Source of the DNA: Streptomyces nigrescens
GTDB lineage: Bacteria; Actinomycetota; Actinomycetes; Streptomycetales; Streptomycetaceae
Length of the DNA: 64,000 bases
NCBI GenBank assembly: GCA_024349765.1
Contig: AP026073.1
Location: 7,130,001-7,194,000, forward strand
Reading direction: 5' to 3'
Positions 29,193-52,422 of this stretch are shown piece by piece. Position 1 is the stretch's first letter; each line of letters starts with the position of its first letter. Position numbers and translations under genes: made by a program. The notes below the pieces were generated by a model, which searched no databases, was not told the origin of the DNA, and saw only the letters and a list, made by a program, of their open reading frames with translations.

Positions 29193-30883
29193 GGCGCGGA
29201 TACGACGACGGGCCCTACGACGGCCGGCACGGCGAACGGTACGGCGAACGGTACGACGACCGGCGGGACGACGACCGGGACGGGTGGTACGGAGGTCCGC
29301 ACCGCCCGGACCGCCCGCACCCCCGCGACCGGCCCGGCGGCCGGGGGCGGGGCATTCCGGACTCCCTGCTGGTCGGGCTGCTCGCCTTCCTGCTGGGCCT
29401 GACCCTGCTGGTGTGGACGGCGACCGGGCTGGCCGGGCTGTTCGCGCACGGCGCCTGGCCGGCGGGCGTCGACTACTCCGGTACGCCGCTGGCCCTGCGC
29501 CATCTGGTGTCCGCGCCGCACGACATGGCCGCCGCCTGGCCGGGCACCCCCAAGGGCCAGCTCTCCGGGTACGGCCTGTTCTGGGGCATCCTCATCGGCG
29601 AGCTGATGGTCCTGCTGGTCCTGACGATCTTCGCGATGGGGACGGTCACCCGCTACCGCGCCGTACGGGCCGCCCGCCGCGCCAAGTCCCGGGCGTCGGC
29701 AGGGGCGGCGCGGGCGGGGCTCGCCGAGGACGCACCGGCCGAGCCGGCCGCGGCGGCCGCACCGGCGACGCCGGCCGCCCCCGTCGCCCAGCCCGTACCG
29801 GCCGCCCCGGAAGCCCCGGCCGTACCGGACGCGCAGGCCGTTCCCGGGACGCCGGCCGATGCCGCCGCCACCGCCCCGTCCGGCCCCGTCCCCGAGCAGC
29901 GCACCGCGTCCCCGGGCGCACCCGGGGCGGTCGCCGCGCCCGGTGAACCGGCGCTGCCCCGCGTCGAGTTCACCGCCGACCGGGCCGCCGCGCGGGCCGC
30001 CGCCGCCACCGTCGCGGCCGCCGCCCCCGGCGCGCTGATCGTGGCCACCACGGACCCCGCGCTGTGGGCCGGGACCAAGGACGCCCGGGCCAAGCTCGGC
30101 CCGCTGCTGACCTACGACCCCACGCACCGCCTCGACACCCCGGCCCGGATGCGCTGGTCCCCCACCGCCGGCTGCGAGGACCTCGCCACCGCGGCCGCCC
30201 GCGCCGCCGCCCTGCTGGCCCCCGTACGCCCCACCAGCTCGCTGGACTCGGCGCTCGCGGACGCCGCGGAGACGCTGTTGCGCTGCTGGCTGCACGCCGC
30301 CGCGGTGGACGGCCGGCCGTTCCGGCAGCTGCACCGCTGGGCGCACGCCGCGGGCGGCGCGCAGGAGCCGGTGCGGATCCTGCGGACCAGCGCCCAGGCG
30401 TCCGCCGGGCAGGCCGGTGAGCTGGAGTCGGTGCTCACCGCGCACGCCGAACGCCGGGAGGCGGCCAAGGAGTTGGTCGGGCGGGCGCTGGCCGCGCTGT
30501 CGTCGATCCACATCCGGGACGCCTGCAATCCGCTGCGCGCGGATTCGCTCCTTCTCGAATCATTCATCGACGAAGGGGGAACGCTCTACGTGGTAGGCGA
30601 GCCCGTCGAGGATCCGCGTACCGACCCGGGTGCGATGCCCCTGCTCACCGCACTCCTCTCGCACGTGGTCGAGCACGGCCGCCGCATGGCCGAACGGTCA
30701 TCCGACGGTCGGCTCGACCCACCACTCACCCTCGTCCTGGACGACATCGCGGCCCTCGCGCCGCTGCCCGCGCTACCCGACCTGCTGGAGGCGGGCCGGA
30801 CGCGCGGCCTGTTGACGCTCGCCACCCTGCGCTCCGCGGAGCAGGCCCGGGCCCGCTGGCCGCACCGCTCCCTGCCGGTCTGA
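29189..30883 (+). CDS. cmdA: CmdA-like VirD4/TraG-type protein without Walker A, possibly 3'-truncated
   Basis: A 564-residue protein from GTG 29189 (GTGA overlap with cmdB). An Asp/Arg/Tyr-rich N-terminus is followed by two membrane helices (LLVGLLAFLLGLTLLVWTA, GILIGELMVLLVLTIFAMG) and a long Ala/Pro linker. A C-terminal region follows the VirD4/TraG pattern: ALIVATTDPALWAGTKDARAK, LLTYDPTHRLDTPARMRWSP and Walker-B-like LTLVLDDIAALAPLPALPDLL, GRTRGLLTLATLRS. No GxxGxGKS is present, so ATP hydrolysis is doubtful. It ends soon after Walker B, where VirD4 proteins continue, and its last 111 bp overlap the convergent thioesterase. Counterpart of SCO4126. Confidence 0.75.
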   Translation: MRRGYDDGPYDGRHGERYGERYDDRRDDDRDGWYGGPHRPDRPHPRDRPGGRGRGIPDSLLVGLLAFLLGLTLLVWTATGLAGLFAHGAWPAGVDYSGTPLALRHLVSAPHDMAAAWPGTPKGQLSGYGLFWGILIGELMVLLVLTIFAMGTVTRYRAVRAARRAKSRASAGAARAGLAEDAPAEPAAAAAPATPAAPVAQPVPAAPEAPAVPDAQAVPGTPADAAATAPSGPVPEQRTASPGAPGAVAAPGEPALPRVEFTADRAAARAAAATVAAAAPGALIVATTDPALWAGTKDARAKLGPLLTYDPTHRLDTPARMRWSPTAGCEDLATAAARAAALLAPVRPTSSLDSALADAAETLLRCWLHAAAVDGRPFRQLHRWAHAAGGAQEPVRILRTSAQASAGQAGELESVLTAHAERREAAKELVGRALAALSSIHIRDACNPLRADSLLLESFIDEGGTLYVVGEPVEDPRTDPGAMPLLTALLSHVVEHGRRMAERSSDGRLDPPLTLVLDDIAALAPLPALPDLLEAGRTRGLLTLATLRSAEQARARWPHRSLPV

Positions 30884-31669
30884 GGCCGCCCGGTCCGGTG
30901 CCGCGACGACGGCCCGCGCCAGGTCCGGCCAGTGCCGGGTCAGGTAGAAGTGGTCGCCGCCCGGGAAGACCCGCAGCCGGAAGTCCCCGGCGGTGTGCGC
31001 CCGCCAGGCCGCCGCGTCGTCCACCGCCACCAGCGGGTCGGCGTCCCCGACCAGCGCGGTGAGGGGGGTGTCGAGCGGCGGTCCGGGCCGGTGCCGGTAG
31101 GTCTCGACGGCCTTGTAGTCGCTGCGGACCACGGGCAGCGCCATGGCCAGCAGTTCCCGGTCGTCCAGCACCCGGGGGTCGGTGCCCCGGGTGCGGCGGA
31201 TCTCCTCGATCAGCCCGTCGTCGTCCCGCAGGTGGACGGTGCCGCCGCGGACCCGGGAGGGCGCCCAGGCGCCGGAGACGACGAGTCGCAGCGGGCGGCC
31301 GGCGCCCGTCCCCTCCAGCAGCCGGGTCACCTCGTAGGCGATCAGCGCGCCCATGCTGTGCCCGAGCAGGACCAGGGGCTGCCGGCCGGTGAGCGGCAGC
31401 AGTCCGCGGAAGGCCCGGGCCGCCAGTTCGCGCAGGTCCTCCAGGCGCTCCTCGTGGAGGCGGTCGTGGCGGCCCGGGTAGCGCACCGCCAGCACCTCGT
31501 ACGGGCCGGCCCCCTCCTCGGCGGCGGCCGCCGCCACCGCCTTGGCGAGCGGCCGGAACGCGGCCGCGCCGCCGCCGGCGTGCGGGAAGCACACCACCCG
31601 GGCGGCCGGCGGCGCCCCGTCCGCGGCCGGCGCCGGGCCCAGTCTGCGCAGCCACCGGCTACATTCCAC
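30773..31669 (-). CDS. Type II thioesterase of the polyketide cluster
   Basis: A 298-residue alpha/beta hydrolase of the RifR/TEII family. VVCFPHAGGGAAAFRPLA leads in; the nucleophile Ser105 is in LLGHSMGALIAYE; then VGDADPLV and His240 in FPGGDHFYL. These enzymes clear stalled or wrong acyl groups from carrier proteins. GTG 31669 overlaps the upstream SDR by 11 nt. Family members usually stop some 20 residues after the His; here 58 follow, and from about residue 262 the frame is antisense to cmdA with unrelated composition (PDRAASDRQGAVRPAG). The native stop seems lost at the cluster edge. Confidence 0.87.
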   Translation of the reverse strand: MECSRWLRRLGPAPAADGAPPAARVVCFPHAGGGAAAFRPLAKAVAAAAAEEGAGPYEVLAVRYPGRHDRLHEERLEDLRELAARAFRGLLPLTGRQPLVLLGHSMGALIAYEVTRLLEGTGAGRPLRLVVSGAWAPSRVRGGTVHLRDDDGLIEEIRRTRGTDPRVLDDRELLAMALPVVRSDYKAVETYRHRPGPPLDTPLTALVGDADPLVAVDDAAAWRAHTAGDFRLRVFPGGDHFYLTRHWPDLARAVVAAPDRAASDRQGAVRPAGPGLLRGAQGGERQQAARPARLQQVG

Positions 31670-32489
31670 GGGTGTAGCCCCCGTCGACGGTCAGGCTCTG
31701 CGCGGTGATCGCCGCCGCCCGGCCGGACACCAGGAACCCGATCAGCTCCGCGGCCTCCCGCGCCTCGACCAGCCGGCGCAGCGGGATGCCCTTGCGGGCC
31801 TGGCGCAGCATCCGGGCCGGGTCGGCGCCGATCTCGTCGGCCTGCGCGGCGAGTTCGCGGCGCAGCATGGGCGTGTCGATCCAGCCGGGCAGGACGGCGT
31901 TGACCGTGATGCCGCGGGCCGCGAGGTCCAGGGCGAGGCCCTTGGTGTAGCCGATCAGGCCGTGCTTGGAGGCGCAGTAGGCGGTGTTCCGCATCTTGCC
32001 GGCCTTGCCGAGGATCGACGAGACGTTGACGATCCGCCCGTGGTCGACGAGGTATTCCAGGCAGGCCGCGGTGACCGCGAAGGTGCCGTGCAGGTTGATG
32101 TCCAGCACCCGCAGCCAGGTGGTCTCGTCGTCGGGCCCGTTCTCGTCGGCCACGCCGGCGTTGTTGACGAGGATGTCGAGGGTGCCGGCGGCCCGCAGTT
32201 CGGCGCGGAGCCGGCCGCGGAGCAGTTCCCGGTCGCGCAGGTCCGCGGCGACGGCCACGGCGGTGGCGCCCAGGCCGGCGGCCTCCTTGACGACCGTCTC
32301 CAGCTGCCCGGCGTCCCGGTCGAGGAGGATCAGCCGGGCGGCGCCGGCCTCCGCCAGCAGCAGGGCCGTCTCCCGGCCGATGCCCTGGGCCGCGCCGGTC
32401 ACCACGGCCGTCTTCCCGGCCAGTTCGCCGGGCGCGGGACCGCCGCCCGGCACGCCCGGAACCCCGGGCGTTGTCACGTCATCGGTCAT
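31659..32489 (-). CDS. SDR-family ketoreductase of the polyketide cluster
   Basis: A 276-residue short-chain dehydrogenase. Cofactor motif TGAAQGIGRE is near residue 31, followed by DILVNNAGVADENG and the Ser of RIVNVSSILGK. The catalytic Tyr/Lys lie in TAYCASKHGLIGYTKGLALD, and the C-terminus reads SLTVDGGYTRGM. An N-terminal Pro/Gly segment of about 22 residues precedes the fold. It is probably an NAD(P)H-dependent 3-oxoacyl-ACP reductase or modifies the released product. It lies 10 nt downstream of the FabG-like gene and overlaps the thioesterase; same operon. Confidence 0.87.
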   Translation of the reverse strand: MTDDVTTPGVPGVPGGGPAPGELAGKTAVVTGAAQGIGRETALLLAEAGAARLILLDRDAGQLETVVKEAAGLGATAVAVAADLRDRELLRGRLRAELRAAGTLDILVNNAGVADENGPDDETTWLRVLDINLHGTFAVTAACLEYLVDHGRIVNVSSILGKAGKMRNTAYCASKHGLIGYTKGLALDLAARGITVNAVLPGWIDTPMLRRELAAQADEIGADPARMLRQARKGIPLRRLVEAREAAELIGFLVSGRAAAITAQSLTVDGGYTRGM

Positions 32490-32499
32490 GGTCGTCCCC

Positions 32500-33246
32500 T
32501 CACGCCATCTTCAGGCCGCCGTCGATGTGGAGCACCTCGCCCGTCGCGTACGTGTTGCGCGGGCTTGCCAGGTACGCCACGGCGTCGGCGATGGTCTCGG
32601 GTTCGGCGTAGGACTTCACCAGCAGCCGGCGCATGATCTCGTCCTCGCCGTGGCTGCGGATGGCGTCGGTCATCTCCGTGTTGATGACGCCGGGGGCGAC
32701 CGCGTTGACCAGGATCCCGCGGGAGGCGAGTTCCACCGCCATCGCCTTGGTGAACGCCTCCAGACCGCCCTTGGCCGCCGCGTAGTTGGACTGCCCGCGG
32801 CCCGGCTTGGAGGCCGCCGACGAGGAGATGTTGACGATCCGGCCGTAGCGCTGGCGCATCATCAGGGGCGCCACGGCCTGGACGGTGAGCATCGGCGCGA
32901 CGAGGTTGGTGGCCAGCACCTGCTCGATGTCCTTCAGGCTCTGGTTGACCAGCAGTTCGTCGCGGGTGATGCCGGCGTTGTTGACCAGCACGTCGATCCG
33001 CCCGAAGGCGGCGCGTACGCCCGCGACCAGTTGCCGCGGCACGTCGGGGTCGGAGACGTCCCCCTGGAAGAGCTCGATGCGGCGGCCGAGCGCGGCGATC
33101 CGCTCGGCGGCCTGTTCCGCCTCGCGGGTGGCGCTGCGGTAGTTGAGCGCGATGTCGCAGCCGCCCTCCGCCAGTTTCAGGGCGATGGCCCGGCCGATGC
33201 CCCGGCTGCCGCCGGTCACCAGTGCCACCTGGCCTTCGAATTCCAT
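32500..33246 (-). CDS. FabG-like 3-oxoacyl-ACP reductase of the polyketide cluster
   Basis: A 248-residue SDR close to FabG: TGGSRGIGRAIALKLAEGG, DVLVNNAGITRDELLVNQSLKD, RIVNISSSAASKPGRGQ, catalytic SNYAAAKGGLEAFTKAMA and VLHIDGGLKMA. The NAGITRD...L motif is typical of reductases acting on ACP-bound 3-ketoacyl chains, so it is the best candidate for the iterative ketoreductase of this PKS. ATG 33246 follows GAGAGGA. It sits 32 nt after the aminotransferase-reductase fusion gene. Confidence 0.9.
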   Translation of the reverse strand: MEFEGQVALVTGGSRGIGRAIALKLAEGGCDIALNYRSATREAEQAAERIAALGRRIELFQGDVSDPDVPRQLVAGVRAAFGRIDVLVNNAGITRDELLVNQSLKDIEQVLATNLVAPMLTVQAVAPLMMRQRYGRIVNISSSAASKPGRGQSNYAAAKGGLEAFTKAMAVELASRGILVNAVAPGVINTEMTDAIRSHGEDEIMRRLLVKSYAEPETIADAVAYLASPRNTYATGEVLHIDGGLKMA

Positions 33247-33278
33247 GGTGTCCTCTCGCGAGTCGGTGCGGTCCGGTC

Positions 33279-36164
33279 TCAGACCGAGTGGGCGCTCTTG
33301 TAGTCGGCCAGCCGCAGCCCGTGCGCGTCGGCCAGCGCCGCGATGTCGATGACCTGCTGGCGGCTGATGTTCCCGTACGAGTAGTGGCGGTCCAGGCCCG
33401 CCAGGCCCATCAGCGCGGTCTCCGCCATGCAGGCGAACAGCTGGCCGGCCTCCAGGAAGGCGCGCGCCGACGGGTGCAGGCTCTCGCCGTTCGGGGTGGC
33501 GACGATCCCGCCGAGCATGTACGCCAGGTCGGGCCGCTGCTCGGTCACGCCCGGCACCACGTTGTTGGGCACCGCGATGTCGCAGATCACCGCGCCGTCG
33601 GCGAAGTGCTCGCCGGTCAGGAACGGTTCGGGGCTGTTGGAGGCGGCAAGCACCAGCTGCGCCTCGCGCAGCGCCGCGCTGTCCTGGGTGACGGTCAGGA
33701 ACGGGTCGCTGCCGTAGCGCTCCTGAAGGTGCTCGGCGATGGCCCGGCCGCGCCCGGCGTCGTCGCCGCCCGGCCCCTCGGCCAGCCACTTGGTGATCAG
33801 CGGCTCCTCCGCGAGCCGCGCCGGGATGCCGGTCAGTTCGCCGCCGGCCGCGATCCGCGACCAGCACTCCTGGTAGATGCCGTGCACGGTGTTGCGCAGC
33901 CGCCGGACGGAGCCGTCGCGGCGGCTGCCGACCAGCACGATCCGGCCGAGCCGCTCGGCGAACAGCTGGCTGTAGACCGACGCGATGTTGCCGGCCGCGC
34001 CGACCACGGCCAGCGTGGCGTCCTCGACCTTCCAGCCGCGGTCCTGCGCGCCCCGCTCCATCGCCTGCACACCCATCGCCACGGTCAGCGCGTTGCCGCT
34101 GGTCAGCGCGATGCCCGGGACCCGCAGCGAGGTGCAGTTGTTCGTGACGATCGAGGTGTACATGCCCAGGCCGGCCACCGCGCAGCCGTCGTCGCGGGCC
34201 GCCTGCACCCGCTCCTCGATGTCCGCGCGGATCCCCGTCACGTCACCGGAGGCCAGATAGCCGCCCATCTGCTCGGACGACACCATCAGCGGGTAGAGCG
34301 CGAACTCCACGGCGCTGCCGAGCGGCGAGTCGATCCGTACGCCGGGGTAGGGCGCGGCCTTCTTGACCGGGTCCATGCCCAGGACGAACGAGCGCAGCGC
34401 CGCGTCGCTCAGGTCGGCGAGCGCCGGGTCGACCTGCCGCAGATGGGCCGGTTCGATGAGGTGGTTGAGGAACGCGACCTTGCGCACCGGCCCGGTCACC
34501 GGCCGCGGCGCGTCCTGCTCGTAGCCGGGCAGCGTGCCCCGGAAGTCCCGGATCTCGGCGCGCGGCTTGGGGATCCGGCGGTCGCTGGCCGGGTGGACCA
34601 GGTGCAGGGTGTCCTCGTGGCGCAGGATGCGGCACAGCCGGTCCAGCGCCCCGCGCACCTGCTCGATCTCCTCGTCGGTGAGGTACGCGGACGGCTGGAT
34701 GCGCAGCACGTTGCCGGCGCTGCCGGTCGGCGCGATGCGGATGCGTTCCTGCCGCAGCAGGTAGCCGGAGAGCAGATAGCCCAGCGACCCGGTGTACGCG
34801 CTGCCGCGCAGCACCATCGAGCGGGCCCCGCCCTGGTCGCGCAGCTGCACGCCGAGGAACAGGCCCTTGCCGCGGACGTCCTCGATGACGTCGGGGTAGG
34901 CGGCCTTGAGATCGTTCAGCACCGCGGTGAGCCGCTCGCCGCGCTCGGTGACCTGCCGGTAGAGCTGCCCGTCGCCGGCCTCCAGCAGCTCGACGACCTT
35001 CCGGGCCACGCCCGAGGAGAAGTCGTCCATGGCGAACGTGGAACTGTGGATGATGTCGAACTCGCCCTGGTACAGCGACTTCCGCACCAGCATCGCGGAG
35101 ATCTTGGCGAGGCCGCCGCCGAGCGACTTGGACAGCGTGTAGTAGTCGCCGCGCAGCCCGATCAGCGAGCTGGCGAGGAACGCGCCGCAGCGGCCCAGGC
35201 CGCTCTGCACCTCGTCGATGATCAGCGCGGTGCCGACCTTGTTGCAGAACAGCCGGATGGCCCGGCCCTGTTCGACGGTCAGCGCATGGATGCCGCCCTC
35301 GCCCTGCACCGGCTCCACCAGGAACGCGGTGATCACCGGCAGGTCCCGCTCGACGACCCGGACCCGCCCGCCGTCGGTCTCCACGTCGAGCAGCGTCACC
35401 CGCTCCTCGTCGGCGATGGCGTCCAGCAGCTCGGGCCGGTCCATCGGCACGAACCGCACCCGCGTCCCGAGGTGGGCGAACGGCGTCCGGAAGCCGCTGT
35501 TGTACGTCAGCTGCACGCTGCCGACGAGCTTGCCGTGGAAGGACCGCTCCAGCGCCAGGAACAGCGGCCGGGTGGCGAGCGCCGCCGTGTTGTGCGCGCC
35601 GACCGCCGCCAGCAGCGCCTCGATGCCCTCGCCCTCCGGCGCCCGCTCCCGCACCGCCGGGGCGTGGAAGGCGTCCGCGTCGACGACGGCCTCGCCCCGG
35701 CCGACCGCCTCCCGCGCCCGCTCCACATGGGCGGCGACGGAGTCGGCGAGCTCCGCGACGGCCCGGACCCGGACCAGCTCGGCGTGTTTGACGGCCGCCT
35801 CGACGGCCTCGGCGCCGCTGTTGCCGAACGTGGCGACGTACGGCTCCTTGACGGAGGTCTCCCGCCGGACGACGTCGCTGAGCGCGGCGCCGAGCCGGCC
35901 GGCCTCCTCCCGCAGCGAGAACTGGGCGTGCACGGCCCGCCGCTGGTCGAGCAGATCGTGCGCGTGGGCGACGATCTCGGGATGGTTGTGGCCCAGGATC
36001 AGCGAGCCGTAGCCGCCCATCAGGTCCAGGACGGGCACCTCGGCGCCCTGCTCGTCACGGTGGTGGAGGGTGTTGCCCTCCGCCCGGACGTACTCCACGT
36101 CCAGCCCCAGGGCGGTGAAGATCCGGCCCATCTGAGGCTGCACGAACTCGGTGAACTGCGACAT
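33279..36164 (-). CDS. Class III aminotransferase fused to an acyl-ACP-reductase-like domain
   Basis: A 961-residue two-domain enzyme. Residues 1-510 are a class III PLP aminotransferase: NSGAEAVEAAVKHAE, LIIDEVQSGLGR and PLP-Lys346 in TLSKSLGGGLAKISAM. A linker of about 50 residues follows. Residues ~560-950 resemble cyanobacterial acyl-ACP reductase (AAR): GLGMYTSIVTNN, nucleotide motif AVVGAAGNIASVYSQLF and QLFACMAETALMGLAG, whose Cys912 aligns with the thioester-forming Cys of AAR, then YSYGNISRQQ. Predicted reaction: acyl-ACP to aldehyde, then to amine, in one protein. ATG 36164 with GGGGA upstream. It follows the second KS pair by 22 nt. Confidence 0.88.
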   Translation of the reverse strand: MSQFTEFVQPQMGRIFTALGLDVEYVRAEGNTLHHRDEQGAEVPVLDLMGGYGSLILGHNHPEIVAHAHDLLDQRRAVHAQFSLREEAGRLGAALSDVVRRETSVKEPYVATFGNSGAEAVEAAVKHAELVRVRAVAELADSVAAHVERAREAVGRGEAVVDADAFHAPAVRERAPEGEGIEALLAAVGAHNTAALATRPLFLALERSFHGKLVGSVQLTYNSGFRTPFAHLGTRVRFVPMDRPELLDAIADEERVTLLDVETDGGRVRVVERDLPVITAFLVEPVQGEGGIHALTVEQGRAIRLFCNKVGTALIIDEVQSGLGRCGAFLASSLIGLRGDYYTLSKSLGGGLAKISAMLVRKSLYQGEFDIIHSSTFAMDDFSSGVARKVVELLEAGDGQLYRQVTERGERLTAVLNDLKAAYPDVIEDVRGKGLFLGVQLRDQGGARSMVLRGSAYTGSLGYLLSGYLLRQERIRIAPTGSAGNVLRIQPSAYLTDEEIEQVRGALDRLCRILRHEDTLHLVHPASDRRIPKPRAEIRDFRGTLPGYEQDAPRPVTGPVRKVAFLNHLIEPAHLRQVDPALADLSDAALRSFVLGMDPVKKAAPYPGVRIDSPLGSAVEFALYPLMVSSEQMGGYLASGDVTGIRADIEERVQAARDDGCAVAGLGMYTSIVTNNCTSLRVPGIALTSGNALTVAMGVQAMERGAQDRGWKVEDATLAVVGAAGNIASVYSQLFAERLGRIVLVGSRRDGSVRRLRNTVHGIYQECWSRIAAGGELTGIPARLAEEPLITKWLAEGPGGDDAGRGRAIAEHLQERYGSDPFLTVTQDSAALREAQLVLAASNSPEPFLTGEHFADGAVICDIAVPNNVVPGVTEQRPDLAYMLGGIVATPNGESLHPSARAFLEAGQLFACMAETALMGLAGLDRHYSYGNISRQQVIDIAALADAHGLRLADYKSAHSV

Positions 36165-36186
36165 GTGTTGGTGGTCCCCTCGTGCG

Positions 36187-37578
36187 TCAGTCCGTGTGCG
36201 GCCGCTGGGCCAGCAGGGCTCCGGCGAACCCGTTGAAGGTGCTGTGCAGACTCAGGACGGAGTCGATCCGCCGCTTCCTGGGCGCACCCATGACGAAGTC
36301 GGTGCCGTCGTCCGGCGGCGTCCGCAGATGCGCGATCGGCGGCAGCTCCCCGGTGGCGAACAGGTGCGGCGCCAGGGCGAGTTCGGCCAGCGGGCCGGCG
36401 GCACCGAGGGTGCCGGTGACCGGCCGCAGCGAGCCGACCAGCACCCCGCTGTCCTTCAGCAGCGCCCGCAGCAGCTCCGCCTCCGCGGCGTCGTGCCGGA
36501 CGGTGCCCTTGCCGTCGGCGAGGACGGCGCCGAGGGTGTCGGGCGTCAGGCCGTGCTCGGCCAGCAGCCCGCGCGGGCCCTCGGCGAGGGCGGACGGGCC
36601 GACGCCGCTGTCCACCGCCGGCCGCAGCGCCGCCCCCAGGAACGTCACCAGCGGCCGCGCCCCGCGCGCCGCCGCGTCCCCGGCCCGCTCCAGCACCAGC
36701 GCCACCGCGCCCTCGGCCAGAACGGTGCCGTCCCGCTCCGCGTCGAAGCTGCGCAGCGCCGCCCCGTCGGGCCCGCCGGGCGTCAGATGGCCGGCGCGGT
36801 ACTGCGCGGCCAGCTTCAGCGGCTCGTTGTAGCTGCCGGCGCCGACCACCAGCGCGGTGTCGCACGTCCCCTCGCGCAGCGTGAAGGCCGCCCGCTGCAG
36901 CGCGCCCAGCGCGGCCCCGGCGTCCTGGACGAACGCCGCGCAGTCGCCCCGGAACCGCTGCGCGATGCTGATCAGCGCGAGCGTGTTGTTGTTCAGCGCC
37001 CGGATGACGGTGAACGGGTTGAAGGTGGCCGCGTTGCCGAACGCCTCCGCCACCAGCCGCGTCAGGTTCACCCCCGCCTCCGGCGAGTGGTCCGTGCGGG
37101 CGTTGTCCAGCGCCTTGTGGAACGCCGCCGCGCTCAGGTCGGTGGAGTCGTCCTGCGCGACGTACAGCCCGCGCCGCTCCTCCGGCACCTGCTGCCAGCT
37201 CTCCCCGGCCGCCGCCATCGCGTCCTGCGCGGCGAGCACCGCGTTGAACGTGAACGGCGTCCCGAACTTGCGCAGTTTGTGCGGGACGCTGTCCCGGCTC
37301 TCCTCCTGGAGCGCGTCCGGCACGTGTCCGAAGTGGCTGATCTTCCGGGTCCGCACGTACGGGTCCCGGTACGGCGACAGCGCCGGCTGCGCCTGCCGCC
37401 AGGCCGACCACAGCGCCTCGGGGCCGCGCCCGGTGGGCAGCACCGCGCCGATGCCGGTGACGACGATCGCGTCCGGGTCGAAGCCCGTACCGGAGGTGCC
37501 GGGGGTGTGGGGGGTGCGGGGGTTGGGGTCGTCGTGGAGCTCGTCCGAGGGGTTCGTACTCGGGAGGTCAGTCGTCAT
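36187..37578 (-). CDS. Catalytically inactive ketosynthase-like protein (CLF-like), pair 2
   Basis: A 463-residue thiolase-fold protein. The N-terminus carries a ~35-residue Pro/Thr extension, then AIVVTGIGAVLPTGRGPEALW. Around the normal Cys nucleophile it reads FVQDAGAALGALQ, with Gln218 at or next to the Cys position. The two catalytic His motifs are changed (LADGKGTVRHD instead of AHGTGT; VTGTLGAAG without GH). Gln for Cys is the mark of KS-beta/chain-length-factor and KSQ domains. It overlaps the active KS at 37568 by 11 nt and is probably its heterodimer partner, shaping chain length or priming by decarboxylation. Confidence 0.85.
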   Translation of the reverse strand: MTTDLPSTNPSDELHDDPNPRTPHTPGTSGTGFDPDAIVVTGIGAVLPTGRGPEALWSAWRQAQPALSPYRDPYVRTRKISHFGHVPDALQEESRDSVPHKLRKFGTPFTFNAVLAAQDAMAAAGESWQQVPEERRGLYVAQDDSTDLSAAAFHKALDNARTDHSPEAGVNLTRLVAEAFGNAATFNPFTVIRALNNNTLALISIAQRFRGDCAAFVQDAGAALGALQRAAFTLREGTCDTALVVGAGSYNEPLKLAAQYRAGHLTPGGPDGAALRSFDAERDGTVLAEGAVALVLERAGDAAARGARPLVTFLGAALRPAVDSGVGPSALAEGPRGLLAEHGLTPDTLGAVLADGKGTVRHDAAEAELLRALLKDSGVLVGSLRPVTGTLGAAGPLAELALAPHLFATGELPPIAHLRTPPDDGTDFVMGAPRKRRIDSVLSLHSTFNGFAGALLAQRPHTD

Positions 37579-38854
37579 AACCGCGTACCACCAGACTGGC
37601 GTTGAGGCCGCCGAAGCCGAAGGAATTGCTCACTGCCACCGACACCTCCTGGTGCCGGGCCTTGTCCGGGACGTAATCGAGATCGCAGGCCGGGTCGGGG
37701 TTCTCCAGGTTGAGCGTGGGCGGCACGATGCCGTCGCGCACGGACAGCACCGTCGCGATCAGCTCCGGCGCGCCGGCCGCGGCGATCAGGTGCCCGAGCA
37801 TCGTCTTGTTGGCGGTCACCGCCAGCTTCCGGTAGTGCTCGCCGCCGGCGAAGACGTCCTTGATCGCCCGGGTCTCGATCGGATCGTTCAGGGGCGTGGA
37901 CGTGCCGTGCGCATTGACCGAGTCCACCGCCTCCGGAGCCACGCCGCCGTCCGCCAGCGCCCGGCGCATCGCCAGCGCCGCGCCCACGCCGTCCGGATGC
38001 GGGGCGGTGACCTGATAAGCGTCGAGGGAGCTACCAAAACCCGCCACCTCGGCATAGACGATCGCGCCGCGCCGCCGGGCGCTCTCCTCGCTCTCCAGCA
38101 CCAGCATCGCGGCGCCCTCCGCGGCGACCAGACCGCTGCGGTCCCGGTCGAAGGCGCGGCACAGCCGGTCCCCGAACAGCTCGGACGTGGAGGGCGCCCC
38201 CAGCAGGTGCAGCCCGGTCATGGTGGGCAGGTTCAGCACCGAGTCGGCGCCGCCCACCACCATCGCGTCCACCTCACCGCGCCGGATCATCCGGAACCCG
38301 TGCCCGATGGCGTGCGTGGCGCCCGCGCAGGCGGTGCTGAAGTTCAGCGCCGGGCCGCGCAGCCGGTGCCGGGCCGCGATCCCGGCGGCCAGCGCGTCAT
38401 TGGTGCAGAACAGGCCGCTGGCCCGGTCGAGTCGGTCGCGCCGCGCGTACAGCGCCTGCCAGCTGGGCTGCCCGTCCTCGCCGAGGGCCGGCAGCAGCTC
38501 CAGCGGGTCGCGTTCCGGTACGCCCGAGCCGACCGCGGTGCCGATCCGGCCCGCCGTCCACGCCCCGTCCCCGCCGGCCGCCAGACCGGCGTCGGCCAGC
38601 GCCTGGCCGGCCGCCGCCAGCCCGAACCGCACCCGCCGCTCCACCGGCCCCGGGTCCTCGTCGGCCCCGTACCGCGCCGCGAACGCCGCGTCGTCGACCG
38701 GCGCCGCATAGCGCACCGGGAAGTCGTCCACGCCCGGCGGCTGCCAGCCGCGGATCGCCGAGCGGCCCTCGCACAGGCCCTCCCACACGGTCTGCCAGTC
38801 GAGCCCCAGTCCGCAGACGGCGCCCAGTCCGGTCACCACGACGCGGCGGCTCAT
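37568..38854 (-). CDS. Active beta-ketoacyl-ACP synthase (KS-alpha), pair 2
   Basis: A 428-residue condensing enzyme with a full catalytic set: Cys176 in NFSTACAGATHAIG, His316 in NAHGTST, Lys350 and His355 in NKTMLGHLIAAAG, and the closing NSFGFGGLNASLVV. It extends an ACP-bound acyl chain with malonyl-ACP. It belongs with FabF-like type II PKS ketosynthases rather than aromatic minimal-PKS ones, judging by motif style. ATG 38854 overlaps the upstream KS-like gene by 4 nt (ATGA) and it overlaps the downstream KS-like gene, so all four KS-type proteins are translationally coupled. Confidence 0.92.
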   Translation of the reverse strand: MSRRVVVTGLGAVCGLGLDWQTVWEGLCEGRSAIRGWQPPGVDDFPVRYAAPVDDAAFAARYGADEDPGPVERRVRFGLAAAGQALADAGLAAGGDGAWTAGRIGTAVGSGVPERDPLELLPALGEDGQPSWQALYARRDRLDRASGLFCTNDALAAGIAARHRLRGPALNFSTACAGATHAIGHGFRMIRRGEVDAMVVGGADSVLNLPTMTGLHLLGAPSTSELFGDRLCRAFDRDRSGLVAAEGAAMLVLESEESARRRGAIVYAEVAGFGSSLDAYQVTAPHPDGVGAALAMRRALADGGVAPEAVDSVNAHGTSTPLNDPIETRAIKDVFAGGEHYRKLAVTANKTMLGHLIAAAGAPELIATVLSVRDGIVPPTLNLENPDPACDLDYVPDKARHQEVSVAVSNSFGFGGLNASLVVRGYDD

Positions 38855-40059
38855 GATCCGGCTCCTTCCAGTACGACGGCACACACCTGACCGCGTGCGC
38901 CGCAGGCCAGCACCAGCACCCGGGAGACCGGCAGCGGCTCCTCGCGGACGGTTTCCCCGTCGTCCGCGAGGAGCCGCCCGGTGGCCAGCCCGTGCAGCGC
39001 CAGCACCACATGGGCCAGCGGATGGGCGGGCCCGAGCACACCGGTGGCGCGCTCGGCCCCGGCCACCGCGGGCCGGGCGCCGGCCGGCCCGAAGACCCGG
39101 TCGAGCGCGGCGCGCTGGGCCTGCTCGCCGGCCGCCGTCCACCCGGCGTCCGGCAGCACCCAGCCGATCCCCGCGGCGTCGGTACCGGCCATCGCCAGCG
39201 CCGCGTGCACCGCCTCGGTGAGCGCCGAGGTCAGGTCCGCACCGTCCGCACCGAACCCGCGCCCGTAACCGGCCAGCCGCACCGCCGGACCATCGGGCGC
39301 CGCGGGTACGTCCCGCGCCCCCGGTACGTCCGGCCCGCGCCGGGCGACGAGGAACGCGGCCCCCTCCCCGGGGGCGGCACCGGTCCAGCCCAGCTCCTCG
39401 TACTGCGGGAACAGCAGCGGATGCACCTTCGGGCTGACCGCACCGATGACGGCCGCCTCGTTCTCGCCCTCGGCGACCGAGAGCACCCCGTCGACCAGGG
39501 CCGAAAGGCCCGCGTCGGAGAACGGGGAGTACGCGGCCATCGCACCGGTCAGCCCGAACACCGCCGAAATGTGCGCCGCGGCCGTGCTGTTGAGATGGGA
39601 CAGCCCGCTGAACGGCGGGACCTCCCGGCCGTAGAGCGCCGCGACCGCACCGGGCGAGTCGTCCGCCGCCCGCCGCAGCCCGTCCAGGGCGGAGAACCGC
39701 AACAACTGCTCGTCGACCGTGGGCAGTCCGAGGTACAGACCCCAGCCCTCCCCGCCCACCGGGCCGGTCACCGAGGGACCGGTCAGCGCCAGCCGCGCCC
39801 CGTACAGCGCCATCCGCGCCTGCTTCTCGGAGGTGCGCAGCACCCGCCGGTGCACACCGAGCGTCGCCGCGTCCGGGTCGTCGACGAGGAACGCGGTACC
39901 CGCGCCGGGCCAGGCCTCGGCGAGCAGCTCGTCGGACCGGCCGGTGTCCTTGCCGGCCACCAGGGCCTCCCACAGCGACGCGGGGTCCGCGCCCGCCGCG
40001 GTGTATAAGCCGGGTGCGGTCAGCCGCACCGCATCGAGGTTCGTCATCGCGTCACTCAC
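38851..40059 (-). CDS. Catalytically inactive ketosynthase-like protein, pair 1
   Basis: A 402-residue divergent KS-fold protein. Recognisable landmarks are AAAHISAVFGLTGAMAAYSPFSDAGLSALVDGVLSVAEG (about 160-198), where the Cys loop of active enzymes reads YSPFSDAG and lacks Cys, and GEGAAFLVARR. No HGT or NK..GH motif is found. It is more divergent than the partner at 36187. GTG 40059 lies in a GTGA overlap with the preceding active KS stop, so it is probably the non-catalytic subunit of that KS. Having two KS/KS-like pairs is unusual for a cluster this small. Confidence 0.75.
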   Translation of the reverse strand: MSDAMTNLDAVRLTAPGLYTAAGADPASLWEALVAGKDTGRSDELLAEAWPGAGTAFLVDDPDAATLGVHRRVLRTSEKQARMALYGARLALTGPSVTGPVGGEGWGLYLGLPTVDEQLLRFSALDGLRRAADDSPGAVAALYGREVPPFSGLSHLNSTAAAHISAVFGLTGAMAAYSPFSDAGLSALVDGVLSVAEGENEAAVIGAVSPKVHPLLFPQYEELGWTGAAPGEGAAFLVARRGPDVPGARDVPAAPDGPAVRLAGYGRGFGADGADLTSALTEAVHAALAMAGTDAAGIGWVLPDAGWTAAGEQAQRAALDRVFGPAGARPAVAGAERATGVLGPAHPLAHVVLALHGLATGRLLADDGETVREEPLPVSRVLVLACGARGQVCAVVLEGAGS

Positions 40060-41366
40060 CCCGCCTGCGCCAGGATCAGCGAGCAGTTCTGCCCGCCGAA
40101 ACCGAAGGAGTTGGACAGCACCGTGGTCACCGGCGTGTGCCGCTGCTCGGTGACGATGTCCAGACCGCGGGTCACCTCGTCCGGCTCGTGGAAGTTGAGC
40201 GTCGGCAGCACGGCCTGCCGCTGCAGGCTGAGCACCGACAGCACCGCCTCGGCCGCCCCGCTGTTCGCCAGCGAATGGCCCATGGCGGACTTGTTGCCGG
40301 TCACCGGGATCCGGCCCACCCGCTCGCCGAACACGGTGTGCAGCGCCGCCGCCTCACAGGTGTCGTTGGCCTCGGTCGAGGTGCCGTGCGCATTGACGTG
40401 GTCGATGTCGTCCGGGGTCAGCCCGCCGTCCGCGAGCGCCGCCCGGATACAGGTGGCGTAGTCGGAGCCGTCGCGGGAACTGGACGTCATCTTCACCGCC
40501 TCGGTCACCCCGGCGTAGCCCGCGACCCGGGCCAGCACCCGGGCGCCCCGGGCCTCGGCGTGCGCCCGCGACTCCAGCACCAGGAACGCGGCGCCGTCCC
40601 CGATGACGAACCCGGAGCGGTCCTTGTCGAACGGGCGGCTCAGCTCCGCCGCGTCCCGGTCCCCGGCCGGCGCCAGCGCACCGATCCCGTAGAACGCGGC
40701 GACCGAGGCCAGCGTCGTCAGGCTCTCCGCGCCGCCGGCCAGCGCCACGTCGAGGGTGCCGCTGCGGATGTAGCGGTACGCGCTGCCGATGGCCATCCCG
40801 CCCGCGGCGCAGGCGTCCGCGTGCGTCTCCAGCACCCCGGCCGCACCGAAGTAGTCGGCCAGCCGCGCGGTGGCGGTGTCCGGCTGGACCCGCTCGTGCC
40901 GCCGCGGGTCCGGCCCGCCCGCGTCGAGGTATGCGTCCAGGTCCAGCGCGCCCGCCTCGAAGTCCACATGGTCGGCCAGACCGGCGAGTTCGGCGGGCTC
41001 CATCACCATGCGGTTGCAGGCGAGGAAGACGCCGCCGCGCTCGGAGTCCAGGCGCCGCGGCAGTCCGCTGCGCTCCCAGGCCTGGGCGGCGGCGTGCCAG
41101 GCGAGCGCGCCGGCCGGCCCCAGCGGGCGGGCCTCCGGCGGCACCGCCTCCTCCAGGGACCGCCGCACCGCGGGGTCGATGTGGGCCGAGACGGCGCAGG
41201 GCACGCCCCACTCCTTGTGGAGCGGGTGCTCGGCGATGAGGGTGTTCCCCTGCGCGAGATGGTCGAACAGCGCCTCGGGGTCGGTCAGTCGACCGGCCAC
41301 CAGGCCGATACCGGTCACCACGACCTCATGACCGGCCCCGGCGGGTATGTGGGGGTTCACTTGCAT
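40056..41366 (-). CDS. Active beta-ketoacyl-ACP synthase (KS-alpha), pair 1
   Basis: A 436-residue ketosynthase: VVVTGIGLVAGRLTDPEAL, nucleophile Cys186 in THADACAAGGMAIG, His327 in NAHGTSTEANDT, Lys359/His364 in NKSAMGHSLANSGA and NSFGFGGQNCSLIL. The Cys elbow DACAAGG differs from the common TACA/TACS of FabF, and GMAIGSAYRYIRSG follows the normal pattern. It lies 42 nt after the ACP gene and overlaps its inactive partner. ATG 41366. It may perform initiation or a different set of extensions from the KS at 37568. Confidence 0.92.
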   Translation of the reverse strand: MQVNPHIPAGAGHEVVVTGIGLVAGRLTDPEALFDHLAQGNTLIAEHPLHKEWGVPCAVSAHIDPAVRRSLEEAVPPEARPLGPAGALAWHAAAQAWERSGLPRRLDSERGGVFLACNRMVMEPAELAGLADHVDFEAGALDLDAYLDAGGPDPRRHERVQPDTATARLADYFGAAGVLETHADACAAGGMAIGSAYRYIRSGTLDVALAGGAESLTTLASVAAFYGIGALAPAGDRDAAELSRPFDKDRSGFVIGDGAAFLVLESRAHAEARGARVLARVAGYAGVTEAVKMTSSSRDGSDYATCIRAALADGGLTPDDIDHVNAHGTSTEANDTCEAAALHTVFGERVGRIPVTGNKSAMGHSLANSGAAEAVLSVLSLQRQAVLPTLNFHEPDEVTRGLDIVTEQRHTPVTTVLSNSFGFGGQNCSLILAQAG

Positions 41367-41408
41367 TCCTTTCGCACGTCGAACGCCTTCGGCGGCGGCC
41401 GGCCAGGG

Positions 41409-41987
41409 TCAGCCGACGGGCTGGGCGTGCCCCAGCGCGGCCAGCGCCGCGCGGACGCCCTCGGCCATCACCTCGTCACCGGTGGCCGCCTCCAGCGCGG
41501 CACCGCAGCCGGCGCACTGGACCTTGCCGGACGGCGCGATCTGCGCCTTGTCGGCGGCGCATTCGGTGCAGGCCTCGGGAAGGTGGTCGAAGATCCGGTG
41601 GGTGAACGCCGCCCAGTGCGCGCTGGTGGCCGCCGCGGCGACCTCGTACGGGCGCATCCCGGCGTGCACCTGCTCCTCGCTGTAGCCGAACGCGCTGCGC
41701 CGCAGCACCTCGGCGGCCAGCTCGGAGATCCCGCCGCGCTCGTCGTAGAGCTGCTCCGACCCGCCGAGCGCCGACGCCAGCTGGTCGAGCACATTGGACT
41801 TGGGCAGCGCCACGCCGAGCTTGGTCTCCATCTCGAAGCGGAATTCGACCAGGTCGAGGGATTCGGCCCCGAGGTCGGAGACGAGGGTGGCGTCCGCGGT
41901 GATCTCATCGACGCTGCTGCCCAGCACCTGCGCCAGTCCCTCGCGGACGATGTCGTGGATCCGGTCTGCCTCGTAGGGGTTCTGCAT
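41409..41987 (-). CDS. Acyl carrier protein fused to a C-terminal zinc-ribbon domain
   Basis: A 192-residue protein. Residues 1-85 are an ACP with phosphopantetheine Ser43 in DLGAESLDLVEFRFEMETKLGV. An ~45-residue helical linker follows (ISELAAEVLRRSAFGYSEEQ, AHWAAFTHRIFDHLP), then a four-Cys ribbon: Cys140/143 in CTEC and Cys158/161 in CAGC, closing with a helix. Ordinary ACPs are ~80-90 residues, so the 105-residue extension is unusual. The ATG 41987 with GAGGAGAGAA upstream is clear; the longer frame to 42038 is not needed. First gene of the PKS operon. The ribbon may dock one of the KS pairs or the aminotransferase-reductase. Confidence 0.88.
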   Translation of the reverse strand: MQNPYEADRIHDIVREGLAQVLGSSVDEITADATLVSDLGAESLDLVEFRFEMETKLGVALPKSNVLDQLASALGGSEQLYDERGGISELAAEVLRRSAFGYSEEQVHAGMRPYEVAAAATSAHWAAFTHRIFDHLPEACTECAADKAQIAPSGKVQCAGCGAALEAATGDEVMAEGVRAALAALGHAQPVG

Positions 41988-42678
41988 GGTTCTCTCCTCG
42001 TTTCGAAAGCACTCTGCACGCCACCTTTTACCGGCCATGGAAACACTGGAAAACGGCAGCGGAAATTACTTGGCGGCACGTTTCGTCAACCGGACGAAAA
42101 CCGGAAGGAAAGTGCGGTGAGAGGACATGACTGAGCCCGCGACGGTTTTACACAGAACGGCTTCGCAAAGCCGGAATGAATTACCGGAAAACCGTCGGAA
42201 AATTCTGCTCAGTACGCCCGGCAGGAGGCGGCGGCCGCCAGCGCGGCACACTCGGCCCCGGGCCGCTGAACGCCGGGGCACTCTCCCGGGAAGCGGGAAG
42301 CCCGGCCACCTGACGTCGTTACGGACATTGCTTCAGACATCGCTTCAGACATCGCTGAACGCGTGACACATGCCATCCCCCGTAGCAAATGATCCCCCCG
42401 ATACCTGCTTACACAGGAACAGGCCGTAATACGTCGGCGAAACCACTTCGTCGTGGCCCACCGAAAGGACCTGCACCGCCTCTCCCGGAGGCGCGATAAA
42501 AACGTTACCAGAGCTCCCCAGAAGCGTCACGGAAATGTGCGGTAGGTCACGTGACCCAATCTCTTCCCCGCGGGGTCAACTCAAAAGGTTCCGTGGTAAT
42601 GAAAAACTTAACGTGGGATTCACATACCCGTGGGCCTGTTTTTCCGTCCCGAACCGTCCCGAAAACCGACCCGGCCGC
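41988..42678 (-). other. 691-bp regulatory region upstream of the PKS operon
   Basis: It is more AT-rich than its surroundings. Leftward promoter-like TTGACG (42084-42089) and TAATTT (42063-42068), spaced 15 nt, lie 76-102 nt before the ACP gene. A TetR-type palindrome is at 42545-42556. A minus-strand GTG frame of 61 codons (42345-42530) starts 15 nt from that palindrome, but its third positions are only about 60% GC and it has no known match, so I do not call it a gene. A transcript from the palindrome would have a ~550-nt leader. Confidence 0.6.
42543..42558 (-). promoter_or_regulatory. Putative TetR operator 2 (PKS operon side)
   Basis: TAGGTCACGTGACCCA contains the perfect 12-bp palindrome GGTCACGTGACC (42545-42556). 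It differs by one base from the core GGTCACGCGACC in the P450-operon promoter at 47053-47064, so it is probably bound by the same repressor. Confidence 0.6.
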
Positions 42679-43872
42679 CTAATTCAACCGCCGCGCATAC
42701 CCCGGCAGCAGCTTCCCCTGATTCACACTCACCGCACCCACCAGACGCTCCCCCCGGTAGTGCGCCACCAGCACCGCACCCTCCGCCGCGGACCCCGCCT
42801 CCACCACCTCGCGGTCCCCCGTACCCGGCAGCCCCACCGACCGGATCCGCAACCCGAACGCCGCCGTCCAGAACGACGGCACATGCACATACGGCTCGGC
42901 CGCCGCCGGCCCCGCCAGCAGATTCCGCCCCGCCAGCTCACCCTGCGCGGCCGCATTGCTCCAGTGCTCCAACGGAACCGGCCCCTCCGCCGTCCGCACC
43001 GCCTCACACCACGCCGCGTCCCCGGCCACCACCACCGCCGGATCCGCCACACCCGCACCACCGGCACCACCCGCGGCCCGCGCGAACAGCCGCTCGTCAC
43101 AGTGGATCCGCCCGGACGGCAACGCCAGCCCCGACCCCACCAGCCACCCCGTGGCCGGCACCATCCCGATCGCCACCACCACCAGCGACGCGGACACCTC
43201 CGCCCCGTCCGCCAGCACCACCGCCCGCACCCGGCCGCCCGCGGCCGCCGCGAAACCCCGCACACCCACGCCCAGCCGCAACGCCACCCCCGCCCGGCCC
43301 GCCGCCTCCGACACCACCTCCGCCACCGTGCCGCCCAGCGCCCGCAGCGGCGCACCGAACGGCTCCACCAGCGTGACCTTCACCCCCAGCCCGCTCAGCG
43401 ACGACGCCAGCTCCACCCCGACGAACCCGGCACCGACGATCACCACCTCATCGGCCCCACCGGCCACCTCGGCCCGCAACCGCCGGACGTCCGCCAGCCC
43501 CCGCACCGTCACCACCCCGTCCGGCACCCCGGCCCCGGGCCACTCCCGCGCCTTCGCACCCGGCGCCAGCACCACCCCGTCGTACGGCAGCTCCGCACCG
43601 TCGGCCAGCCGCACCCGCCGCCGCTCCCGGTCCAGCCCGACCGCCCCGGTCCCCCGGATCCAGCGGGCGCCGAACTCCGCCTCACCCGCCAGCCGGATGT
43701 CGTCCCCGGTCATCGTCCCGGCCACCACCTGCTTCGTCAGCGGCGGCCGGTCGTAGGGCAGTTCCCGCTCGTCCGACACCACCGTCAGCCGGCCGTCGAA
43801 CCCCTCGGCCCGCAGCGACCCCGCGGCCCGCACCCCCGCGAGACCCGCCCCCACCACGACGACCTCGCGCAA
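42679..43872 (-). CDS. FAD-dependent ferredoxin reductase
   Basis: A 397-residue pyridine-nucleotide oxidoreductase of the P450-redox (putidaredoxin-reductase/BphA4) type. FAD motif VVVGAGLAGVRAAGSLRAEG is at the N-terminus, then DRPPLTK, NAD motif VIVGAGFVGVELASSLSGLG near 145 and AIGMVPATGWLVGSG. PAVVVAGDAAWCE follows, with EHWSNAAAQGELAGRNLL and an ALLVAHYRGERLVGAVSVNQ-like C-terminal domain. It passes NAD(P)H electrons to the ferredoxin encoded just upstream. The longest start is TTG 43872, with AGGGGG upstream; an internal GTG is possible. Last gene of the P450 operon. Confidence 0.9.
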   Translation of the reverse strand: MREVVVVGAGLAGVRAAGSLRAEGFDGRLTVVSDERELPYDRPPLTKQVVAGTMTGDDIRLAGEAEFGARWIRGTGAVGLDRERRRVRLADGAELPYDGVVLAPGAKAREWPGAGVPDGVVTVRGLADVRRLRAEVAGGADEVVIVGAGFVGVELASSLSGLGVKVTLVEPFGAPLRALGGTVAEVVSEAAGRAGVALRLGVGVRGFAAAAGGRVRAVVLADGAEVSASLVVVAIGMVPATGWLVGSGLALPSGRIHCDERLFARAAGGAGGAGVADPAVVVAGDAAWCEAVRTAEGPVPLEHWSNAAAQGELAGRNLLAGPAAAEPYVHVPSFWTAAFGLRIRSVGLPGTGDREVVEAGSAAEGAVLVAHYRGERLVGAVSVNQGKLLPGYARRLN

Positions 43873-43875
43873 CGC

Positions 43876-44070
43876 TCAGGCCCCCTCGACCACGAGCGCC
43901 CGCACCGGACACGCCCGCACCGCGGCGGCCACCTTGCCCGCCAGCCCGTCCGGCACCTCCGGCGCCACCACCAGGCGCTCGTCGTCATCGAGCGCGAACA
44001 CCTCGGGCGCCACCAGCGCACACTGCCCGAGCCCGTCACACACGTCCCGGTCGACCCGGATCTCCACCAT
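43876..44070 (-). CDS. [3Fe-4S]-type ferredoxin
   Basis: A 64-residue ferredoxin. The cluster Cys residues are in VCDGLGQCALVAPEVF (CxxxxxC) and in RACPVRALVVE, the three-Cys pattern of small actinomycete P450 ferredoxins. The acidic surface (ALDDDERL) fits reductase/P450 docking. ATG 44070 is chosen, as homologues start MVEIRVD; a frame to 44094 adds eight residues. It lies between the P450 and its reductase, so these three genes form a complete electron-transfer chain. Confidence 0.9.
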   Translation of the reverse strand: MVEIRVDRDVCDGLGQCALVAPEVFALDDDERLVVAPEVPDGLAGKVAAAVRACPVRALVVEGA

Positions 44071-44112
44071 CCCGCTACCCCCCACCGCTCTCACCCTGCT
44101 CCTGATACCGCG

Positions 44113-45333: not shown

Positions 45334-45981
45334 TCAGTCCCGGAGCAATTGCACGGCAAACTGCGCCAGTTGCGCATCCATCGCGGACGACCGGCTGCCG
45401 GCGATCCCCGACCGCATCAGGGCCGCCCCCTCGACCAGCGCCACGAACGTCTCGGCCCGGGCCCGGCAGAACTCACCCGACCAGTCCGGCCGCCCCTGCT
45501 GGACGTACGCCTCCACATGGGCCACGTACTTCCGGTAGAACTCCCGCACCACGGTGGCGATCTCGTCGTCCCGCGCCGCCAGCGCCCACACCTCGACATA
45601 CAGCCGGACCAGCTGCGGATCGTCCTGCTCGGCGAGGACCACCCCCACCACCTCGTCGGGGTTCGCCGGCCCCGCCGGCAACTCGATGGCCGACGGGTCG
45701 TCCCGCACCATCCGCAGCCCCGTCGTCTCCGCCAGCCGCTCCAGCGAACGCTCCAGCGCCCGCTCCAGCACGGCCTTGATCAGATCCGCCCGGGTCGGGA
45801 AGTAGTGCTGCAGATGCCCGACCCGCACCCCCGCCTCACCGGCGATCGCCCGCAACGAGGCATCCGACCCCTTGGCCACCAGCACGGCCTCGGCCGCGTC
45901 CAGCAGACTCGTCCGCCGAATGCTCCCCTGCCGCGTCAGCGTCGAGCCCTTACCGGCCCCGCCGTCCTTCTCCTCGCTCAT
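45334..45981 (-). CDS. TetR-family transcriptional repressor
   Basis: A 215-residue TetR protein. The HTH lies at about 20-65: RRTSLLDAAEAVLVAKGSDASLRAIAGEAGVRVGHLQHYFPTRADLI. A helical ligand domain follows (YVEVWALAARDDEIATVVREFYRKY; AETFVALVEGAALMRSGI). ATG 45981 overlaps the stop of the upstream gene (ATGA). It is encoded inside the P450 operon, whose promoter holds a palindrome in the -35/-10 spacer, so autorepression is likely. The ligand may be the cluster product or an intermediate. Confidence 0.92.
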   Translation of the reverse strand: MSEEKDGGAGKGSTLTRQGSIRRTSLLDAAEAVLVAKGSDASLRAIAGEAGVRVGHLQHYFPTRADLIKAVLERALERSLERLAETTGLRMVRDDPSAIELPAGPANPDEVVGVVLAEQDDPQLVRLYVEVWALAARDDEIATVVREFYRKYVAHVEAYVQQGRPDWSGEFCRARAETFVALVEGAALMRSGIAGSRSSAMDAQLAQFAVQLLRD

Positions 45982-47396: not shown

Positions 47397-47473
47397 ACTA
47401 TGAAGTTAACCAACCGGAATCATGACTCAACGGTCGTTACTTCAGAACCTACACAGTGGACGCGAGCAACTGA

Positions 47474-52422
<4,949 letters not shown>

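Follow-up and report, generated by a model that had tools for sequence, protein, structure and literature searches.

The koreenceines of Pseudomonas depend on the kec gene cluster, in which, according to Lozano et al. (2019, PMC6498172), kecABCDEFGH encode an acyl carrier protein (ACP), a ketosynthase (KS), a chain length factor (CLF), a second KS, a second CLF, an aminotransferase/reductase fusion and two reductases. The same paper places partial koreenceine-like clusters of Streptomyces in a clade C and describes the Streptomyces and Xenorhabdus clades as being without kecI-K. A 2024 paper (PMC10829540) gives 230 homologues with comparable clusters, 23 of these in Streptomyces, and a 2025 preprint names BGC0001987 as the MIBiG entry of the koreenceine cluster. 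We analysed a 64,000-nt stretch of Streptomyces nigrescens DNA (contig AP026073.1, positions 7,130,001 to 7,194,000; the window, in whose coordinates all positions are given) and found an operon that we identify, with a probability of about 85%, as a Streptomyces koreenceine-type (kec) gene cluster.

Open reading frames (ORFs) and their translations revealed nine minus-strand genes, running from 41987 to 30773 in the order ACP-KS1-CLF1-KS2-CLF2-fusion-SDR1-SDR2-thioesterase (SDR, short-chain dehydrogenase/reductase), with a widest gap of 42 nt between ACP and KS1 and overlap at four junctions. Pfam searches of the nine proteins returned four ketoacyl-synt matches, Aminotran_3, two SDRs, Thioesterase and PP-binding, and no acyltransferase, dehydratase (DH), cyclase or aromatase family. 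In NCBIfam, SDR1 scored 258 bits for TIGR01830, below the cut-off of 297.75, and 222.9 for NF009466, above the cut-off of 222. A sequence-only reading had described a nine-gene operon with these boundaries and spacing, containing an ACP, two active KS, two inactive KS-like proteins, the fusion, two SDRs and a thioesterase, with no cyclase, aromatase, acyltransferase or DH; the translations, Pfam, NCBIfam and the catalytic residues agree with it on each of these points. Its statement that no named cluster has this exact gene set did not hold, since kecA-H match in gene content and order and Streptomyces members were published in 2019 and 2024. The identification is based on observed gene set, gene order, orthology, catalytic residues and insertion boundaries: the kec order lies within one operon, the KS and CLF are orthologous to those of other kec loci, and the fusion has an intact pyridoxal phosphate (PLP) lysine and an intact reductase cysteine.

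Alignment showed that KS1 and KS2 retain the catalytic Cys and His, and that CLF1 has Ser and CLF2 has Ala in the Cys column. In a maximum-likelihood tree of 51 sequences, KS1, KS2, CLF1 and CLF2 each formed a single clade across the kec loci (SH-aLRT 99, 100, 100 and 99, respectively). This was a quick tree with long branches flagged, from which the CLF1 of one locus (L163, <250 aa) was excluded, and its comparison set consisted of own-genome KS, not individually typed as FabF, with no characterised polyene KS included. Against the NCBIfam fabF model, KS1 and KS2 scored 302.6 and 380.7 bits, both below the cut-off of 493.75. A position outside primary FabF had been named beforehand as a check, and the sub-cut-off scores together with the separate clades confirm it; the possibility that the KS are primary FabF duplicates was ruled out on the same grounds. 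Among solved structures, KS2 gave 195 bits with AntD (6smo), 200 bits with the actinorhodin KS and 315 bits with the best FabF-type chain, and the second-best match of CLF2 was actinorhodin 1tqy_B. An aromatic type II polyketide synthase (PKS) was also considered and ruled out by the missing cyclase and aromatase families, in agreement with the earlier view that this is not a standard aromatic minimal PKS.

The N-terminal half of the fusion matched CrmG (E 1.6e-142). Its C-terminal half matched the aminotransferase entry 4ppm, with the Cys kept, and the long-chain acyl-ACP reductase (AAR) 6jzu of Synechococcus; 4ppm is PigE according to PMC9594044. Both Lys346 and Cys912 were conserved in every kec fusion aligned. 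No record in the phage collection covered 80% of the fusion. A 1532-bp record of Cyanobacteria phage AS-1 (DQ115832) matched the reductase domain at 48.8% over fusion positions 597-961; it may be host DNA.

The C-terminal extension of the ACP was aligned across 22 sequences, one of which (Chitinolyticbacter L063) ends before it. In this alignment the Streptomyces and Pseudomonas sequences retained the four extension Cys, as did a metagenome-assembled genome (MAG, L064); the four Cys were absent from Photobacterium L059, Pseudoalteromonas L065 and Xenorhabdus L066 and L069, and were not seen in the short L063 sequence. The structure model of the ACP had a pLDDT of 90.5, and its first part matched ordinary ACPs in Foldseek: the 50 matches listed were all ACPs save one of low probability and longer alignment, and none was better than E 0.001. 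The extension motif resembles a zinc-ribbon-like Cys4. An ACP of P. putida, PP_2777, is described as unusual in predicted structure (PMC12490732).

We investigated the distribution of the fusion and its neighbours. At E 1e-50 the fusion matched in 60 of 392 Streptomyces genomes. Full-length fusions at 85-100% identity occurred in seven of these genomes, comprising the source genome and six others at 85-97% (6/391), and four genomes carried full-length fusions at 45-47%; the remaining 49 matches covered mostly the aminotransferase half. All six regions fetched around the close matches had the identical operon order, one (L039) ending at a contig end upstream of the ACP. A close fusion in 6/391 other genomes with matching order in the six regions argues that the operon is not a chance arrangement. 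In the genus to which the P. frederiksbergensis genome G392 (locus L097) belongs, 16 of 199 genomes also contained the fusion, 15 of them at 44-46% identity to the S. nigrescens protein and the sixteenth at 38%. The order ACP-KS-CLF-KS-CLF-fusion-SDR-SDR was present in 8/9 Pseudomonas regions fetched, the ninth (L164) having the fusion alone, and in Photobacterium L059, Pseudoalteromonas L065, Xenorhabdus L066 and L069 and MAG L064. Chitinolyticbacter L063 is a kec-type locus with a short ACP match and no SDR match after the fusion. Most of the non-Streptomyces loci came from a scan of the best 80 of 567 relatives, which is no census. In Streptomyces endophytica HNM0140 (L062), CLF1 and the thioesterase each consist of two overlapping pieces, possibly from sequencing errors or decay. 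Three loci from Streptomyces, Micromonospora and Saccharomonospora (L055, L073 and L074) hold Cys-intact fusions of 33-35% identity with no kec KS/CLF match nearby.

The Streptomyces loci carry further genes. The thioesterase was present in 7/7 Streptomyces kec loci (L039-L044 and L062, where it is split) and gave no match in the 14 non-Streptomyces kec loci. Cytochrome P450, ferredoxin and ferredoxin reductase were present in all 6 Streptomyces kec loci whose sequence covers this region (L040-L044 and L062) and gave no match in the 13 non-Streptomyces kec loci that extend 4.4 kb or more beyond the ACP on its upstream side; Xenorhabdus L069, with 1.9 kb upstream, was counted for the thioesterase alone. 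These searches were run at E 0.01, with 10-kb stretches used for the Pseudomonas loci, and all queries were found in the two Streptomyces loci that served as positive control. The sequence-only reading had linked the neighbouring P450 to the operon, and synteny supports its being part of the unit. A saccharopine-dehydrogenase-like (SacDH-like) gene lay beside the cluster in 5/5 Streptomyces kec regions reaching that far, and a TetR match in Pseudoalteromonas L065, upstream of the ACP and on the opposite strand, was weak (26%). A SacDH-like and TetR pair with no kec or P450 match was seen in 3/121 genomes (Streptomyces L175-L177). TetR and SacDH are located within the inserted segment, but the occurrence of such a pair without kec makes it uncertain that they belong to the cluster. 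The P450 translation contains FGVGPHFCLG, which we take to be a heme-type motif. No description of the Streptomyces P450 set was found in the text passages of the literature that the analysis covered, figures and supplements lying outside that scope.

The boundaries of the segment were examined in other genomes. A neighbouring core gene at 26167-27732 was present in 61/61 Streptomyces genomes searched. Two genomes without the cluster have, 665 bp (L190) or 53 bp (L193) after the gene that ends at 30883 in the window, sequence matching the window from about 47270, where an rRNA operon lies with its 5S end (5S at 47278-47394). Because these flanks are near-adjacent in the two cluster-free genomes, a cluster segment of 16.4 kb is delimited between the core gene and 5S. 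The unit is probably longer than previously stated, extending to 47039 and taking in ferredoxin reductase, ferredoxin, P450, TetR and the SacDH-like gene. In another genome (G311) an rRNA operon likewise lies beyond SacDH, and three other genomes showed a short pre-5S match at a contig end. The last ~110 nt of the thioesterase ORF (30773-30883) run antisense over the conserved core gene end; because of this overlap, the insertion site determines the last thioesterase residues. The adjoining rRNA operon is complete (5S, 23S and 16S; 47278-52424, minus strand).

Features of the kec cluster and its upstream genes in the window
Feature	Coordinates	Strand	Families, residues and support
KecA-type acyl carrier protein, ~110-residue C-terminal extension with two CxxC pairs	41409..41987	-	PF00550; Ser43 in GAESL
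KS1, KecB-like active ketosynthase	40056..41366	-	Cys186, His327, then GH motif; kec clade SH-aLRT 99
CLF1, KecC-like, KS-like without catalytic Cys	38851..40059	-	Ser in Cys column; kec clade SH-aLRT 100
KS2, KecD-like active ketosynthase	37568..38857	-	Cys177, His317; kec clade SH-aLRT 100
CLF2, KecE-like, KS-like without catalytic Cys	36187..37578	-	Ala in Cys column; kec clade SH-aLRT 99
KecF-like fusion, class III aminotransferase and acyl-ACP reductase (AAR) domain	33279..36164	-	PF00202; PLP Lys346; Cys912; GAAGNI
SDR1, KecG-like FabG-type ketoreductase	32500..33252	-	YxxxK, Tyr157; NF009466 (FabG)
SDR2, KecH-like second SDR	31659..32489	-	PF13561; YxxxK, Tyr171
Thioesterase, stand-alone	30773..31669	-	PF00975; GHSMG
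Ferredoxin reductase	42679..43872	-	PF07992, PF14759
Small ferredoxin	43876..44094	-	PF13459
Cytochrome P450	44113..45291	-	PF00067; best solved match PikC, 288 bits
TetR-family regulator	45334..45987	-	PF00440
SacDH-like Rossmann protein	45978..47039	-	named by eye; no Pfam match

The cluster probably builds a short fatty chain, the end of which is turned into a hemlock-alkaloid-like nitrogen ring. In the proposed route, an acyl starter bound to the ACP would be elongated with malonyl units by the two KS/CLF pairs, and keto groups would be reduced by SDR1 and SDR2; dehydration and enoyl reduction, if any, would rely on the enzymes of fatty-acid synthesis. Cys912 in the reductase half of the fusion would accept the chain, this half would release it as an aldehyde, which the aminotransferase half (Lys346) would convert to an amine, and this amine would close unaided on the 5-keto group to give a 2-alkyl tetrahydropyridine. 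P450, with ferredoxin and ferredoxin reductase, may then oxidise the product, and the thioesterase would clear stalled chains. We infer a 2-alkyl tetrahydropyridine in this strain because of the CrmG, PigE and AAR matches and published work on TamH and nigrifactin. PtTamH is a transaminase-reductase fusion of like layout, and PtTamA and PtTamH convert a C12 acid to the amine via an ACP-bound chain (PMC9594044). In the argimycin P pathway of Streptomyces argillaceus, the ring-containing nigrifactin was formed by the PKS and the aminotransferase ArpN with other named cluster genes deleted, and spontaneous cyclisation was suggested for its ring (PMC5300972). The chemistry put forward in the sequence-only reading (an acyl-ACP chain, partial keto reduction, aldehyde release, transamination and a cyclic imine) is the one that Lozano et al. 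proposed for koreenceine (PMC6498172).

The product could instead be an open-chain alkyl amine resembling the tambjamine tail, formed from a fully reduced chain, perhaps P450-modified, and containing no cyclic imine. Two reductases are present here and linear amines are made by PtTamH (PMC9594044), but the two KS/CLF pairs and the gene order fit a cluster with known ring products (PMC6498172), and a Pfam scan of 14 proteins, from the operon and upstream of it, recognised neither pyrrole-forming genes of tambjamine or prodiginine clusters nor any other tambjamine-type genes; this outcome is unlikely. It is very improbable that the thioesterase, constant as it is in the Streptomyces kec loci, releases a hydroxy or keto fatty acid, with the fusion acting only late or in trans; it gave no match in the other kec loci, and the similar argimycin cluster has a stand-alone type II thioesterase, ArpT, called an editing protein (PMC5300972). 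A new kind of type II PKS, unrelated to any named cluster, might be read from the thioesterase and P450, ferredoxin and ferredoxin reductase genes, which were unseen in the other kec loci examined. One-to-one orthology and the gene order shared with kecA-H type loci rule this candidate out, and we give it hardly any credence.

Several observations weigh against a koreenceine-type ring product from a kec cluster. The product in this strain is a prediction from the genes, and the operon is without DH or enoyl reductase. SDRs are not universal in kec loci, since Chitinolyticbacter L063 is without an SDR match. The fusion is no more than 44-46% identical to its counterparts in 15 of the 16 Pseudomonas genomes, so the starter and the length of the chain may not be the same as in Pseudomonas. 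The kecI-K genes are not in the adjacent downstream position, which is occupied by the thioesterase and then the core gene; no search with kecI-K sequences was made. The ferredoxin reductase ends 691 bp before the ACP on the same strand, and given this distance the P450 set may form a separate transcript from the operon. The insertion site is also not identical in every genome, as a search of 10 kb in G035 did not find the rRNA flank.

We examined the relationship of the fusion to stand-alone aminotransferases. The reductase Cys was kept in 26 of the 30 sequences with a reductase domain and was Gly in four (L045-L048, from Streptomyces genomes G333, G351, G347 and G160). These Cys-less fusions lie near type I-like KS matches, and Pfam confirmed a type I PKS in just two cases, L045 and L046. 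The PKS of L045 includes a terminal reductase domain (PF07993) of its own, and the single L046 PKS protein scanned was without one. In careful trees, stand-alone aminotransferases, including CrmG, and the Cys-less fusions fell within the kec group, as sister to the fusions of Streptomyces kec loci. The reductase-domain tree placed the Cys-less fusions likewise, more weakly (94/92). A single clade of kec fusions was rejected by approximately unbiased (AU) tests (p-AU 0.001 and 0.008 in the aminotransferase trees and 0.02 for the reductase domain), for which the group was picked after a first quick tree. The aminotransferase trees exclude the partial L076 and L077, one of them also L079, L071 and L049 and the other also L057 and L058, and their stand-alone aminotransferases come from 9 of the 18 loci L021-L038, with L068 and CrmG added. 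The fusion-like ORF of L049 (G360) is 734 aa long, and its reductase part is incomplete. Around stand-alone copies, the L054 region has a type I PKS and the L052 region a nonribosomal peptide synthetase (NRPS) protein with a terminal reductase; the L053 protein scanned was glucanase-like, two L051 proteins were regulators, and the L050 region had no KS match. The direction from fusion to stand-alone enzyme is suggested by the outgroup fusions, which also have the Cys.

We tentatively propose, at slightly less than an even chance, that Streptomyces kec clusters make unisolated, P450-oxidised koreenceine-type alkaloids and that CrmG-type aminotransferases of type I PKS and NRPS pathways descend from a kec-type fusion. 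The reductase Cys would have been lost (Cys to Gly in 4/4 such Streptomyces fusions aligned) where the assembly line has its own terminal reductase, and the whole reductase would have been lost afterwards. The transaminase trees point to a scenario, open to testing, in which the release enzyme of a type II PKS passed to type I assembly lines and was trimmed to a stand-alone transaminase. As a complete-looking member of the koreenceine family, the cluster may be novel in its accessory oxidation set and this transaminase history. It represents a branch of a plant-like alkaloid pathway in the actinobacteria, in a defined 16.4-kb unit that carries a conserved oxidation set and can now be taken into heterologous expression.

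Polyene and aromatic type II PKSs (AntD, actinorhodin KS/CLF) have a KS/CLF pair and an ACP in common with this cluster, which differs from them in being without cyclase, aromatase or dedicated DH. PigE of prodigiosin biosynthesis contains both kinds of domain found in the fusion; they stand in reverse order there, and PigE belongs to a pyrrole pathway. The argimycin P and coelimycin clusters and CrmG share aldehyde release and a class III aminotransferase with the cluster, and argimycin and coelimycin contain a nitrogen ring, but these clusters use a modular type I PKS with a terminal reductase (TR) domain and a stand-alone aminotransferase. PtTamH of the tambjamine YP1 pathway resembles the fusion in its N-terminal transaminase, C-terminal AAR-like reductase and ACP-bound substrate, whereas its fatty acid is loaded by TamA and its product is a linear amine. 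The kec cluster of Pseudomonas koreensis (BGC0001987) and PP_2777-PP_2784 of P. putida KT2440 share the eight-gene order with the S. nigrescens operon, and the KS/CLF clades, the four-Cys ACP extension and the catalytic Lys and Cys of the fusion are common to it and Pseudomonas kec. Pseudomonas kec carries kecI-K (membrane proteins and a transporter), whereas the Streptomyces cluster continues into a thioesterase gene and is preceded by genes for P450, ferredoxin, ferredoxin reductase, TetR and the SacDH-like protein.

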